A stretch of 64,000 nt of DNA from Jiangella endophytica (lineage in GTDB: Bacteria > Actinomycetota > Actinomycetes > Jiangellales > Jiangellaceae). The position numbers and the translations under genes were made by a program. The notes under the pieces are model-generated. The model was not told the origin of the DNA, ran no database searches, and saw nothing but the letters and a program-made list of their open reading frames with translations. Location of the stretch: positions 124,001-188,000 of the forward strand of contig NZ_QVAI01000001.1 of NCBI RefSeq assembly GCF_003427025.1. The letters run 5' to 3'. Positions 32,991 to 36,117 of the stretch are shown piece after piece. Each line of letters begins with the position of its first letter. The first letter of the stretch is position 1.

Positions 32991-33113
32991 GGGTGGCCGA
33001 CGGATCTTCGGCGGGCGGCGTCCAGGAGCCGGCATCCGCCGATATCCGTCAGACACTCCATCCCGTCCGTTCCGGTGGGAATCCACCGGACGGGTGGGCG
33101 CGTTGTCCCCGGT

Positions 33114-33518
33114 GTGACAGGACTGGTGGTCGTTGCCGCCGTGCTCGCGGCCGCCACGGCGTTCGGGCTGTGGCGGCGAGCCCGCGACGGCCGGGTGGTG
33201 GAGGCGAGGGTGGACGAACAGCCGCTGGGCCCCGACGAACTGGGCGCGCCGCTGGGCGAGCGGGCCACGCTGGTGCAGTTCTCGACGGCGTTCTGCCAGC
33301 CGTGCCGAGCGGCCCGCGCCACCCTGGCGCACGTCGCGGCCGACACCGAGGGCGTCGTCCACGTCGAGATCGACGCCGAGCACCACCTCGACCTCGTCCG
33401 GCGGCTGAACATCCTGCGTACGCCCACCACTCTGGTCCTCGACGGCACTGGCCGCATCGTCCGCCGGGCGACCGGCGCGCCGCGGCTGGCGGACGTCCGC
33501 GCCGCCCTCCCTGCCTGA
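33114..33518 (+). CDS. Membrane-anchored thioredoxin-like protein
   Basis: A 134-residue protein: one N-terminal hydrophobic helix (VTGLVVVAAVLAAATAF) and then a thioredoxin fold with active site FCQPCRAARA and the cis-Pro segment NILRTPTTLVLDGTG. Both redox cysteines are kept. GTG 33114 places the helix at the start; no good ribosome site is seen. As I recall, a similar single-helix thioredoxin (ThiX, Rv0816c) adjoins the cysA2-sseC2 genes in mycobacteria. A role in extracytoplasmic thiol chemistry is likely. Confidence 0.88.
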   Translation: MTGLVVVAAVLAAATAFGLWRRARDGRVVEARVDEQPLGPDELGAPLGERATLVQFSTAFCQPCRAARATLAHVAADTEGVVHVEIDAEHHLDLVRRLNILRTPTTLVLDGTGRIVRRATGAPRLADVRAALPA

Positions 33519-33599
33519 TTTGGCCGGATCCCGAGACGACATATCTCGTTATTTGATACGGACGGTGACGACGTGGGGTCGTCGCCGTACGCTCGTGTC

Positions 33600-33674
33600 A
33601 TGTTCCGCACAGAGCTCTGGAAGCGCCGCGCCATCGACTTCGGTCGCGCCGCGTCCATGCTCTGTCTGCCCTGA
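33600..33674 (+). CDS. Cysteine-containing leader peptide of the sulfur operon (24 aa)
   Basis: ATG 33600 to TGA 33674 encodes 24 residues: MFRTELWKRRAIDFGRAA then SMLCLP. The R-x-IDxxRxAS-x-LC pattern is that of the actinobacterial putative leader peptides found upstream of sulfur-assimilation genes. TACGCT at 33588-33593 lies 6 bases before the ATG, with TGACGA at 33566-33571 as a possible -35, so the mRNA probably begins at the ATG (leaderless). Two small hairpins follow at once, then the DUF4395-sulfurtransferase-sseC operon. Cys-dependent translation of the leader could set expression of the operon. Confidence 0.75.
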   Translation: MFRTELWKRRAIDFGRAASMLCLP

Positions 33675-33710
33675 CGGGGAACGGCCCCGCCGCGCGGTCT
33701 GAATCCGCGC
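33675..33710 (+). promoter_or_regulatory. Possible attenuator hairpins after the Cys leader peptide
   Basis: CGGGG/CCCCG (33675-33679 with 33685-33689) and GCGCGG/CCGCGC (33692-33697 with 33705-33710) form two short stems directly after the leader stop codon. No T-run follows, so control may act at translation or Rho level. The segment lies 59 bases before the DUF4395 start. Confidence 0.5.
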
Positions 33711-33768
33711 CCTTCGGCCTGTAGCCGTTCCTGACGATCGTCTCCGTTCCGTCCACGTCAGGAGGACC

Positions 33769-34212
33769 ATGCCGACTCGAATCGACCCCAGGGGTCCCCG
33801 ATTCGCGGCCGTGCTCACCACCGTCGTCCTCGCGGTGGTCCTGGTCACCGGCAGCGCGTGGCTGCTGGCGATCCAGGGCCTGGTGTTCGCGGCCGGAGCG
33901 CTGTTCGGGCTGCCGCGGGCGCCGTACGGGCTGCTGTACGCGAAGCTCGTCCGGCCCCGGCTCGGTCCGCCCGGCGAGCTCGAAGACGCCGCGCCGCCGC
34001 GGTTCGCCCAGGCTGTGGGGCTGGTGTTCGCCGTGGTCGGCGTCATCGCCTTCGCCGCCGGGCTCACCGTCGTCGCGTACGTCGCCGTCGCGGCCGCCCT
34101 GGCCGCGGCGTTCCTCAACGCGGCCTTCGGCTTCTGCCTCGGCTGCGAGTTCTACCTCGCCTACCGGCGTCTGTTCCCATCCCAACCCAACACCACGGAG
34201 GTCGCGTCATGA
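33769..34212 (+). CDS. DUF4395 membrane protein
   Basis: A 147-residue protein with two pairs of hydrophobic helices (~13-45 and ~80-118) and a conserved cytosolic or interfacial CxxC (FGFCLGCEFYLAYRR) near the C-terminus, as in the DUF4395 family. Such genes adjoin rhodanese-type sulfurtransferases and thioredoxins, so the Cys pair may take part in sulfur or redox transfer at the membrane. Start at ATG 33769 with AGGAGG just upstream. Its stop overlaps the sulfurtransferase ATG (ATGA), showing coupling. Confidence 0.9.
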   Translation: MPTRIDPRGPRFAAVLTTVVLAVVLVTGSAWLLAIQGLVFAAGALFGLPRAPYGLLYAKLVRPRLGPPGELEDAAPPRFAQAVGLVFAVVGVIAFAAGLTVVAYVAVAAALAAAFLNAAFGFCLGCEFYLAYRRLFPSQPNTTEVAS

Positions 34213-35057
34213 GCCGCGAGTCCAGCCTCGTCTCGGCCGACTGGGTCGAGCAGAACCTCGACAACCCGAAGGTGGTGCTCGTCGAGGTCGACGAGGACAC
34301 CGCCGCCTACGACAAGAACCACATCCGCGGTGCCGTGAAGGTCAACTGGTCGACCGACCTGCGCGACCCGGTCCGCCGCGACTTCGTGAACAAGGAGCAG
34401 TTCGAGGCGCTGCTCGGCGGCCTCGGCATCGCCAACGACGACACCGTCGTGCTCTATGGCGGCAACAACAACTGGTTCGCCGCGTACGCGTACTGGTACT
34501 TCAAGGTCTACGGGCACGGCGACGTGCGCCTGCTCGACGGCGGCCGGAAGATCTGGGAGCTGGAGAGCCGCGAGCTGGTCGACGCCGCGCCGTCTCGCGA
34601 GGCCACCACCTACACCGCGCAGGACCCGGACAACTCCATCCGCGCCTTCCGCGATGAGGTCGTCTCCGCCATCGGCGCGCAGAACCTGGTCGACGTCCGC
34701 TCGCCCGACGAGTACGCCGGTCGGCTGCTCGCGCCGGCCCACCTGCCGCAGGAGGTGTCGCAGGTCCCGGGTCACATCCCGACCGCGGCGAACGTCCCGT
34801 GGAGCAAGGCGGCCAACGACGACGGCACCTTCCGCTCCGACGACGAGCTGCGCGCCCTCTACGGCGACGTCGGCGTCGACTTCGGCAAGGACACCATCGC
34901 CTACTGCCGCATCGGCGAGCGCTCGTCGCACACCTGGTTCGTGCTGCGCGAGATCCTCGGCATCCAGAACGTGAAGAACTACGACGGCTCGTGGACCGAG
35001 TACGGCTCGCTGGTCGGCGTGCCGGTCGCCACCGGCGACGAGCCCGGGACGGCGTGA
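34209..35057 (+). CDS. Thiosulfate sulfurtransferase (rhodanese, CysA2/SseA type)
   Basis: A 282-residue tandem rhodanese that transfers sulfane sulfur from thiosulfate to thiol or cyanide acceptors in the cytosol. The N-terminal rhodanese repeat (DKNHIRGAVKVNW, LYGGNNNWFAAYAYW) is non-catalytic. The C-terminal repeat has the active Cys in IAYCRIGERSSHTWF. LVDVRSPDEYAG and PGHIPTAANVPWSKA are typical linkers. It matches the mycobacterial CysA2/CysA3 group by pattern. ATG 34209 overlaps the DUF4395 stop, and sseC follows after 4 bases, forming the sulfur operon downstream of the leader peptide. Confidence 0.95.
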   Translation: MSRESSLVSADWVEQNLDNPKVVLVEVDEDTAAYDKNHIRGAVKVNWSTDLRDPVRRDFVNKEQFEALLGGLGIANDDTVVLYGGNNNWFAAYAYWYFKVYGHGDVRLLDGGRKIWELESRELVDAAPSREATTYTAQDPDNSIRAFRDEVVSAIGAQNLVDVRSPDEYAGRLLAPAHLPQEVSQVPGHIPTAANVPWSKAANDDGTFRSDDELRALYGDVGVDFGKDTIAYCRIGERSSHTWFVLREILGIQNVKNYDGSWTEYGSLVGVPVATGDEPGTA

Positions 35058-35061
35058 TCTC

Positions 35062-35358
35062 ATGTGCGGAGCCACCACCGGCGGCGTCTCGCTGGACGAC
35101 GTCGACGTGACCAAGGAGACCGTCATCCAGGGCGTCGTCCACCGTGACGACGCGCCCCTGGGGGGCGCCTACGTGCGGCTGCTCGACGCCACCGGCGAGT
35201 TCACCGCCGAGGTCCCGACCAGCGCGACGGGCCAATTCCGGTTCTTCGCCGCGCCCGGCACCTGGACCCTGCGCACGCTGGCGCCGGGAGCGGAGACGGT
35301 CGACCGCTCGGTCGTCGCCCAGGTCGGCATCACGGACGTCGACGTCTACGTCGGCTGA
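35062..35358 (+). CDS. sseC: DUF1416 protein (SseC family)
   Basis: A 98-residue protein beginning MCGAT, with two beta-rich segments (VIQGVVHRDDAPLGGAYVRLLDATGEF, GQFRFFAAPGTWTLRTLAPG) resembling a small carboxypeptidase-regulatory-like beta-sandwich. In mycobacteria the sseC genes sit directly after the CysA-type sulfurtransferase, as here (4-base gap), and are expressed with sulfur metabolism genes; the molecular role is not known. The conserved Cys2 is noteworthy. A strong terminator hairpin follows at 35371-35400. Confidence 0.93.
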   Translation: MCGATTGGVSLDDVDVTKETVIQGVVHRDDAPLGGAYVRLLDATGEFTAEVPTSATGQFRFFAAPGTWTLRTLAPGAETVDRSVVAQVGITDVDVYVG

Positions 35359-35515: not shown

Positions 35516-35523
35516 CTCAGCAC

Positions 35524-35637
35524 TCAGTAGACGAGGGCCTGGACGCCGTCGGCCATGATCTCCTCGACGAAGGTCGGGACTCAGTAGACGAGGGCCTGGA
35601 CGCCGTCGGCCATGATCTCCTCGACGAAGGTCGGGGC
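35524..35637 (-). repeat. 57-bp tandem duplication of the DsrE gene tail
   Basis: 35524-35580 and 35581-35637 are identical except at the last-but-one base. The unit is exactly 19 codons including the stop, so the functional gene ends at the stop in the right-hand copy (35581-35583) and the left-hand copy is an untranslated duplicate of the C-terminal coding sequence. The near identity points to a recent event or local assembly artefact. Confidence 0.9.
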
Positions 35638-35943
35638 GCCGGCGATGCGGACGCCCTCGATGACGTCGTCGGGGCCGATGCCGCGGCGTGCTGCGCACTG
35701 GGTGCACAGCGTCACGGAGCCGCCGGCCAGCAGCGCCTCCAGCAGGTCGGGCAGCGGCGCGGCGTGCGGCAGTTCGAACTCGGCGGCCCGGCCGGGCAGC
35801 GCGAACCACGCCGACTCGCCGGTCAGCCACAGCGACACCGTGGCGCCCGCCGCGAGCGCCGTCGTCGCGACGGTGAACGCCTGCGAGCAGCGCTCGGGTG
35901 CGTCCGAGCCGGCGGTGACCTTGACCACGAGGGTGCGCTCCAT
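35581..35943 (-). CDS. DsrE-family protein
   Basis: A 120-residue protein of the DsrE/TusD fold (MERTLVVKVTAGSDAPERCSQAFTVA, VSLWLTGESAWF, CTQCAARRGI). The Cys in VTLCTQCAARRG matches the conserved region of DsrE-like sulfur-relay proteins, so it may carry persulfide; its place beside the sulfur operon agrees. ATG 35943 starts the conserved core; longer in-frame starts run into remnant sequence. The last 19 codons are duplicated downstream (see repeat). Catalytic role unproven. Confidence 0.85.
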   Translation of the reverse strand: MERTLVVKVTAGSDAPERCSQAFTVATTALAAGATVSLWLTGESAWFALPGRAAEFELPHAAPLPDLLEALLAGGSVTLCTQCAARRGIGPDDVIEGVRIAGAPTFVEEIMADGVQALVY

Positions 35944-35985
35944 GCAGGCAAGCCTAGGACGCGCTGGCGACCGGCCGCGAGGTCG

Positions 35986-36117
35986 TCTACTGGGCTCCGC
36001 GGCACCGATGGGCTGCGGCGCGGCCCGGGCGGCTGGACGATCGCGCACGAGCACGTCTCGCTGCCGGTGGAGTTCCCGCAAGGGACCGCGGCGATGGATC
36101 TCGTGCCGCCCGGCTAG
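35986..36117 (+). pseudogene. C-terminal scrap of an NTF2/SnoaL-like gene
   Basis: About 43 codons ending in TAG at 36117 read GLRRGPGGWTIAHEHVSLPV and onward to LVPPG. The pattern LRR..GGW.IAHEH.S.P is characteristic of the C-terminus of SnoaL/SgcJ-like (NTF2 fold) proteins of ~130-150 residues. No start or upstream portion remains; the sequence runs directly into the DsrE start region. I read it as a deletion remnant. Confidence 0.55.

Follow-up and report, generated by a model that had tools for sequence, protein, structure and literature searches.

A single-cysteine leader peptide before a Jiangella sulfurtransferase operon as a probable cysteine-responsive translational attenuator

The window analyzed here, by which we mean the whole 64,000-nt stretch of DNA, comes from a host genome of 7.85 Mb in 89 contigs and carries a short leader open reading frame encoding MFRTELWKRRAIDFGRAASMLCLP on the plus strand (33600..33674), with 24 sense codons up to 33671 and a TGA stop codon at 33672-33674. 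Direct reading bears out this 24-codon frame as initially annotated, including its ATG at 33600 and the TACGCT six bases 5' of it, and places the sole Cys codon of the leader, TGT, at 33663-33665. The genes that follow on the same strand match the operon that had been assigned to the leader, as their domains attest. The first structural gene (33769..34212), which starts 94 nt after the leader stop, encodes a DUF4395 protein (PF14340; E 1.1e-46), whose closest named relatives found are in Jiangella anatolica and J. muralis (95% and 94% identity, respectively). It overlaps by ATGA the gene of a two-domain rhodanese, a 3-mercaptopyruvate or thiosulfate sulfurtransferase (34209..35057), and the latter is followed by a DUF1416 gene (PF07210; E 3e-38; 35062..35358), whose name SseC we take to come from mycobacteria. 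Upstream of the leader lie a thioredoxin-like gene (33075-33518) and, 3' of it, a terminator-like stem with a T-rich tail on the plus strand (33532..33548, a pattern match only), so that the leader probably opens its own transcript. Beyond the operon, two 100% identical copies of a 57-base unit (35522-35635) cover the end of a minus-strand DsrE-like gene (35581-36081), which leaves a second copy of the 3' end of this gene behind its stop codon.

The leader peptide is highly conserved among close relatives. All 24 residues were identical in 7 of the 60 genomes searched (the host's included), residues 1 to 22 were identical in 6 further genomes, 2 of which belong to another genus of the Jiangellaceae, and one additional genome had a peptide 96% identical; some match at E <= 1 was present in 44 of the 60. 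In an alignment of 20 family members, identity was 0.90 in leader columns versus 0.63 in intergenic columns. Within the genus (12 species), the changes in the 17 motif codons were all synonymous (pN 0.000, pS 0.087), and over 44 genera the core of the leader had a pN/pS of 0.32. As judged from these comparisons, the peptide is under selection. It is a divergent, single-Cys relative of the NCBI Ms5788A leader family (NF042933), against which it scored 19.9 bits (E 0.00043), below the curated cutoff of 45. Its score against NF042934 (cis_reg_atten), with which it shares the actinobacterial R-x-V-D-x-x-R...C motif, was 17.0 bits, below the curated cutoff of 27, and annotation by NF042934 alone would therefore omit this leader.

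Relatives were collected by a class-wide search for the sulfurtransferase, which matched 249 of 296 genomes at E <= 1e-70. Upstream DNA was taken for 146 of the best 150 sulfurtransferase places (G067, G081, G100, and G172 were omitted), and these best-scoring matches are not a random sample, weaker ones lying outside it. A leader with the motif preceded 138 of the 146 regions; the eight others, without a leader by motif, were L084, L094 (a contig end), L113, L133, L158, L163, L169, and L184. We analyzed 137 leaders, leaving out L121 despite its leader, and resolved the first gene for 130 of them after reassigning the starts of L120, L137, and L162. Three loci with doubtful starts (L080, L112, and L144) were kept outside the permutation and ten-window tests of DUF4395-first operons and inside the synonymous-shuffle and accessibility tests. 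The accessibility test covered 111 leaders, and the 44 genus representatives of the synonymous test were drawn from the 118 leaders that combine a terminal LC with a TANNNT start and a resolved gene. A second, named set held 80 loci, 26 of them without a leader by motif (15 of these labelled Streptomyces or Actinacidiphila), which left 54; it possibly overlaps the first set in species.

The relatives share the consensus LTKRRAVDxCRVATxLCRxx, in which L, R, D, R, and C are invariant among the 44 genus representatives; the search motif required R, D, R, and C and left L(-7), the codon choices, and the pairings described below free. NF042933 and NF042934 each matched 43 of the 44 representatives at E <= 0.01. 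This comparison with actinobacterial leaders supports the sulfur-leader motif recognized in the initial annotation. From the first R of the motif to the stop, 26 of the 137 leaders have one Cys codon and 71 have two, and the survey suggests that such a device, in most cases carrying one to three Cys codons, stands before the sulfurtransferase operon in most actinobacteria examined.

A leaderless start at 33600, claimed earlier from the -10-like TACGCT (33588..33593, plus strand), fits the spacing in the window and finds support in the relatives. A TANNNT stands 4 to 9 nt before an in-frame ATG or GTG in 133 of the 137 leaders (at a distance of 6 to 9 nt, and at 6 or 7 nt in 126 of them), compared with a mean of 1.3 of 137 at displaced positions, and in 51 of the 54 leaders of the named set; a Shine-Dalgarno-like stretch precedes the chosen start in only 7 of the 137. 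From this spacing, we infer that the leader mRNA starts at the A of its ATG. A possible -35 element, GTGACG (33565..33570, plus strand), was recognized by eye 17 nt before the -10, and visual inspection of family members showed GTGAC or ATGAC recurring at roughly the corresponding position; a sigma-70 consensus scan found no promoter. In the host genome, the TANNNT spacing occurs in 3 of 12 leader-like frames, the window's included, so leaderless starts are not general there, which counts against the attenuator proposed below. Four of the host's leaders without the spacing (L008, L010, L011, and L014) have, upstream of their starts, TAGGAA followed after 9 to 10 bases by a possible start codon. 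This may be a different promoter element or the site of a regulator.

The codon choice at the Cys positions is unusual. The Cys nine residues after the Asp (D+9), positioned 3 to 5 codons before the stop in 123 of 129 terminal-LC leaders, is encoded by UGU in 135 of the 137 leaders and in 54/54 of the named set, and the next base is C in 128 of the 137 (53/54 in the named set). The other frequent Cys (D-x-C-R) is encoded by UGC in 105 of 111 leaders (46/46 in the named set), and the first structural genes, as far as covered, use UGC 152 times versus UGU 19 times. In the host genome, UGU occupies the Cys position in the 12 leader-like frames examined. Within one short peptide, the two Cys positions thus differ in their codon, nearly always UGU at one and UGC at the other, and this rule calls for an explanation. 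Both Cys codons are read by a single tRNA-Cys with the anticodon GCA, and the codon is probably held as UGU because this tRNA reads UGU by wobble, hence more slowly. Slow wobble decoding is the explanation that we favor for UGU at D+9. Judging by this pattern, the Cys of the leader is special as a codon, beyond its amino acid.

Two pairings, both on the plus strand, involve the leader mRNA. In the first, R1 (ACAGAGC, 33609..33615, leader codons 4 to 6) pairs with R2 (GCUCUGU, 33659..33665), which holds the predicted stall codon UGU (33663-33665). Swapping R1 and R2 between genera never gave as good a result (0/1000 with 47 genera; 0/2000 in the named set), nor did synonymous shuffles (0/300), and at several other loci CGACAGAGC pairs with GCUCUGUCG as the counterpart of R1:R2. 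The criterion for R1, the best helix over the 5' part of the leader, was looser than that for the other elements, so that the register of R1 differs between families. The idea that UGU is kept merely for pairing with R1 was rejected, since UGU persists in 42 of the 44 leaders that lack a strong R1:R2 helix.

In the second pairing, CCUGACG (33670..33676), an anti-Shine-Dalgarno element that spans the leader stop codon, is the exact complement of CGUCAGG (33756-33762), about 80 nt downstream in the Shine-Dalgarno region of the DUF4395 gene (CGUCAGGAGG, 33756..33765), the predicted masked site. Counterparts from other families, which differ in sequence and still pair (G-U pairs allowed), are GGCUCCUGAAC with GUUCAGGAGCC in L125, UUCCUGAGGG with CCUUCAGGAG in L123, CCUGACGGG with CCCGUCAGG in L109, and UGUCCCUAGG with UCUGGGGACA in L164. 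Over 35 genera with DUF4395-first operons, the mean helix was 6.96 for native partners versus 5.93 for partners swapped between genera, and none of 2,000 permutations equaled the mean of the native partners. Of ten transcript windows, the co-variation signal was confined to the two containing the stop codon, and synonymous shuffles of the leader destroyed it (0/300 as good). The swap test repeated on the named set gave 2/2000 as good (28 genera). RNAalifold, run on the family alignment, predicted six of the seven pairs of each helix unprompted. Peptide conservation, the UGU, the leaderless promoter spacing, and the two pairings are all properties that the compared sequences themselves display.

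Some comparisons count against the attenuator proposed below. The sulfurtransferase-first operons (16 genera) showed no co-variation between the leader tail and the Shine-Dalgarno (898/2000), and neither did family f26 alone, with four DUF4395-first genera (180/2000); the co-variation result thus covers DUF4395-first operons, and not evenly. Within the Jiangellaceae alone, no pair was changed on both sides and no co-variation was found, since both helices are nearly invariant there. A swap test on ten leaders of the host genome was not convincing (316/5000). The sulfurtransferase-first leaders (e.g., L172, L175, L178, and L197) have the same type of peptide and the UGU with no sign of tail pairing, so the output step may differ in these operons.

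The RNA of the window locus has a minimum fold of -79.5 kcal/mol (z -2.65; 3/200 shuffles as good). In this predicted fold, GGGAACGGC (33677..33685, plus strand) pairs with GCCGUUCCU (33724-33732) in a helix continuous with the anti-Shine-Dalgarno helix. The two small hairpins noted earlier after the leader, CGGGG/CCCCG (33675-33679/33685-33689, plus strand) and GCGCGG/CCGCGC (33692-33697/33705-33710, plus strand), can both form, and the minimum-energy fold keeps only the second, longer-range pairing replacing the first. We rejected them as the control structure; on sequence grounds, the relevant RNA elements are probably the stop-region:Shine-Dalgarno helix and R1:R2. No Rfam family reached its gathering score anywhere in the 64,000 nt. 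Intrinsic termination was rejected as well, since a scan of 33480-33800, to which Rho sites are invisible, found no T-run terminator from the leader to DUF4395. A second possible anti-Shine-Dalgarno copy, UUCCUGACG (33728..33736, plus strand), can pair with 33756-33764. In this region (33724-33736), GUUCCUGACG is kept in all 12 aligned species of the genus and is absent in that form from the 8 other aligned members of the Jiangellaceae.

We consider it probable that the leader is a cysteine-responsive translational attenuator placed before DUF4395-sulfurtransferase-SseC. With ample Cys-tRNA, ribosomes would complete the 24-codon leader and depart. On the vacated leader, CCUGACG (33670-33676) would pair with CGUCAGG (33756-33762) and hide the Shine-Dalgarno of DUF4395, and ACAGAGC (33609-33615) would in the same masked state pair with the GCUCUGU of the Cys-codon region. 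With scarce Cys-tRNA, a ribosome would wait with UGU (33663-33665) in its A site, where the conserved nascent residues before the Cys (L, RR, D, and R) may prolong the pause. When a stalled codon occupies the A site, the front edge of the ribosome lies about 13 nt downstream; the footprint of the stalled ribosome would cover the leader stop region and free the Shine-Dalgarno region, allowing DUF4395, the sulfurtransferase, and SseC to be translated. The stall, the cysteine signal, the unmasking, and the effect on the operon are the steps that we infer here. The initial annotation was right in outline about what is a real observation: control by cysteine through a stall at the C-terminal Cys codon agrees with the comparison. 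It had given no route from the stall to expression, for which the evidence favors unmasking of the ribosome-binding site.

Simulated stalling is consistent with such unmasking in part of the loci. With a ribosome placed at the Cys codon of DUF4395-first loci, the mean probability of an unpaired Shine-Dalgarno core went up from 0.18 to 0.30, and 38 of 73 loci rose by more than 0.1; when the block was set nine codons earlier, 3 of 73 did so. The corresponding figures for sulfurtransferase-first loci were 6 of 38 and 3 of 38. Among the Jiangellaceae, the effect was weaker: 10 of 20 loci rose by more than 0.1 and 3 (L059, L065, and L070) fell by more than 0.1. In the window itself, the rise was modest (0.20 to 0.30), which counts against the attenuator. 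So does the second anti-Shine-Dalgarno copy UUCCUGACG of the genus, which in the model could keep the site masked; GGGAACGGC, beside the stop codon, may hold this second copy away when only the first is blocked. One control codon is also few for a starvation sensor, and the scores of the peptide below both NCBI cutoffs likewise speak against the attenuator. A more far-reaching version, which we put forward tentatively, is that one slow UGU is enough: it would be the sensor of a class-wide arrest-peptide attenuator in which the invariant L..RR.VD..R.....C primes the ribosome and the mRNA also serves as a switch in three parts, its 5' codons pairing with the Cys codon and its stop codon with the Shine-Dalgarno. 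If this is true, the mycobacterial polycysteine form would have been elaborated late, from an older device with a single UGU.

The alternative that survives best, although we regard it as rather improbable, is an arrest peptide, whose nascent chain would itself halt the ribosome. The signal on the ribosome-nascent-chain complex would then be cysteine, Cys-tRNA, or some sulfur metabolite, and all steps after the stall would be shared with the cysteine-responsive attenuator. The invariance of L, R, D, R, and C in the 44 genus representatives while their codons vary speaks for it, as do the Asp-to-Cys spacing of nine residues (seen in 124 of 129 terminal-LC leaders), the zero pN over the motif within the genus, and the fact that one Cys codon suffices here. 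Against it, the invariance of UGU speaks for a role of Cys-codon decoding, and the mycobacterial members with contiguous Cys codons are reported to depend on cysteine availability (PMC9031893). Two points are now open to ordinary mutants, namely, any effect of the synonymous choice at the hungry codon on sensitivity and any share of the conserved peptide in the stall.

We think it unlikely that the leader acts through transcription, for example by Rho-dependent termination before DUF4395 once the ribosome leaves. A weak prediction of this kind for mycobacterial cys leaders appears in PMC1262725, and something other than Shine-Dalgarno masking may act in the sulfurtransferase-first operons, where the Shine-Dalgarno shows no co-variation. 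This route gives no purpose to the co-variation of the stop region with the Shine-Dalgarno in DUF4395-first operons, and the interval has no T-run terminator in a scan that is blind to Rho sites. Still less credible is a device for translational coupling or reinitiation for which the RNA structure and translation of a short frame would be sufficient, with no cysteine signal. Leader genes have been proposed to raise downstream translation by reinitiation (PMC4833913), in a proposal that rests on a distance peak at 10 to 11 bp; here the distance is 94 nt. Reinitiation would also leave unexplained the sulfur genes and the contrast of UGU at one Cys position with UGC at the other. A +1 frameshift at UGU-C upon starvation, carrying ribosomes through the stop region, can practically be dismissed: a C follows UGU in 128 of 137 leaders, and UGU-C is reminiscent of hungry-codon shift sites, but the length of the +1 frame that follows the Cys codon does not clearly exceed that in shuffled sequences (median of 108 versus 87 codons in DUF4395-first operons and 50 versus 47 in sulfurtransferase-first ones), and in the window this frame ends after 12 codons.

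The cysteine-responsive attenuator resembles known systems. In the trp and his attenuators, a stalled ribosome changes the RNA pairing, and the logic proposed for the window leader is similar; unlike them, it has no intrinsic terminator, a single control codon, and a strongly conserved upstream peptide. In 2020, Canestrari et al. reportedly described polycysteine leaderless short ORFs of Mycobacterium smegmatis, in which ribosome pausing frees the downstream ribosome-binding site, and the Ms5788A family (NF042933) is presumably named after one of these. Like Ms5788A, the window leader has a predicted leaderless start, the LxxRRAVDxxR motif, a C-terminal Cys, and DUF4395 downstream, and it would attenuate by a pausing ribosome that frees the ribosome-binding site. 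It differs in having one Cys codon instead of a Cys run, as reflected in its 19.9 bits against a cutoff of 45. In three of the five loci of family f4 (L173, L185, and L194), which have a polycysteine leader before DUF4395 and come from one other genus, the Cys run itself pairs with the Shine-Dalgarno, whereas in the window the anti-Shine-Dalgarno is centered on the stop codon; f4 would be Mycobacteriaceae-like. Cysteine attenuation has so far been worked out in mycobacteria with Cys-codon runs, and the window leader is a single-Cys form of this known kind of attenuator; what is new are the rules around the leader revealed by comparison.

Candidate cys leaders were described in Mycobacterium, Propionibacterium acnes, and Bifidobacterium longum by Seliverstov et al. 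in 2005 (PMC1262725); these leaders contain runs of Cys codons, no conserved hairpin was found, and the mode of regulation was left open. The window leader resembles them in being a short ORF with a Cys near the stop, before sulfur genes, and differs from these leaders in that a pairing partner was found: the stop-region pairing supplies the RNA partner that this earlier comparison had not found. Leaderless ORFs with contiguous cysteine codons attenuate downstream translation (PMC9031893), cysteine-rich regulatory short ORFs are present in M. tuberculosis (PMC9094748), and cysteine genes under translation attenuation are described in PMC13236596. Among the eight leader peptides of Streptomyces lividans listed in PMC8079986, cysteine is assigned to none. 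Among the titles returned by a literature search that covers few subscription journals, we noticed none on the UGU rule or on the pairing of a stop codon with a Shine-Dalgarno.

Other leaders of this type are present in the host genome. In the eight downstream proteins scanned for domains, we found a nitrite/sulfite reductase domain, a cysteine dioxygenase, and peptide-type and NMT1-like solute-binding proteins, together with a dicarboxylate-type symporter, a class II aldolase, a zinc carboxypeptidase, and a gene with a Trans_reg_C domain. These targets are consistent with a single signal, borne by the ribosome, that sulfur and transport genes would share. In L013 (contig C9, 1543-1669), a leader-like frame lies, by eye, before a solute-binding-like protein, and its Cys-codon region GCGCUCUGUCG can form 11 base pairs, including a single G-U, with CGACGGAGCGC at the Shine-Dalgarno; here, masking may be performed directly by the sensor codon. 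Finally, the leader peptides L007 and L011 (contig C89, 243385-243657) are encoded back to back on opposite strands, and one of them precedes the gene with the Trans_reg_C winged-helix domain.
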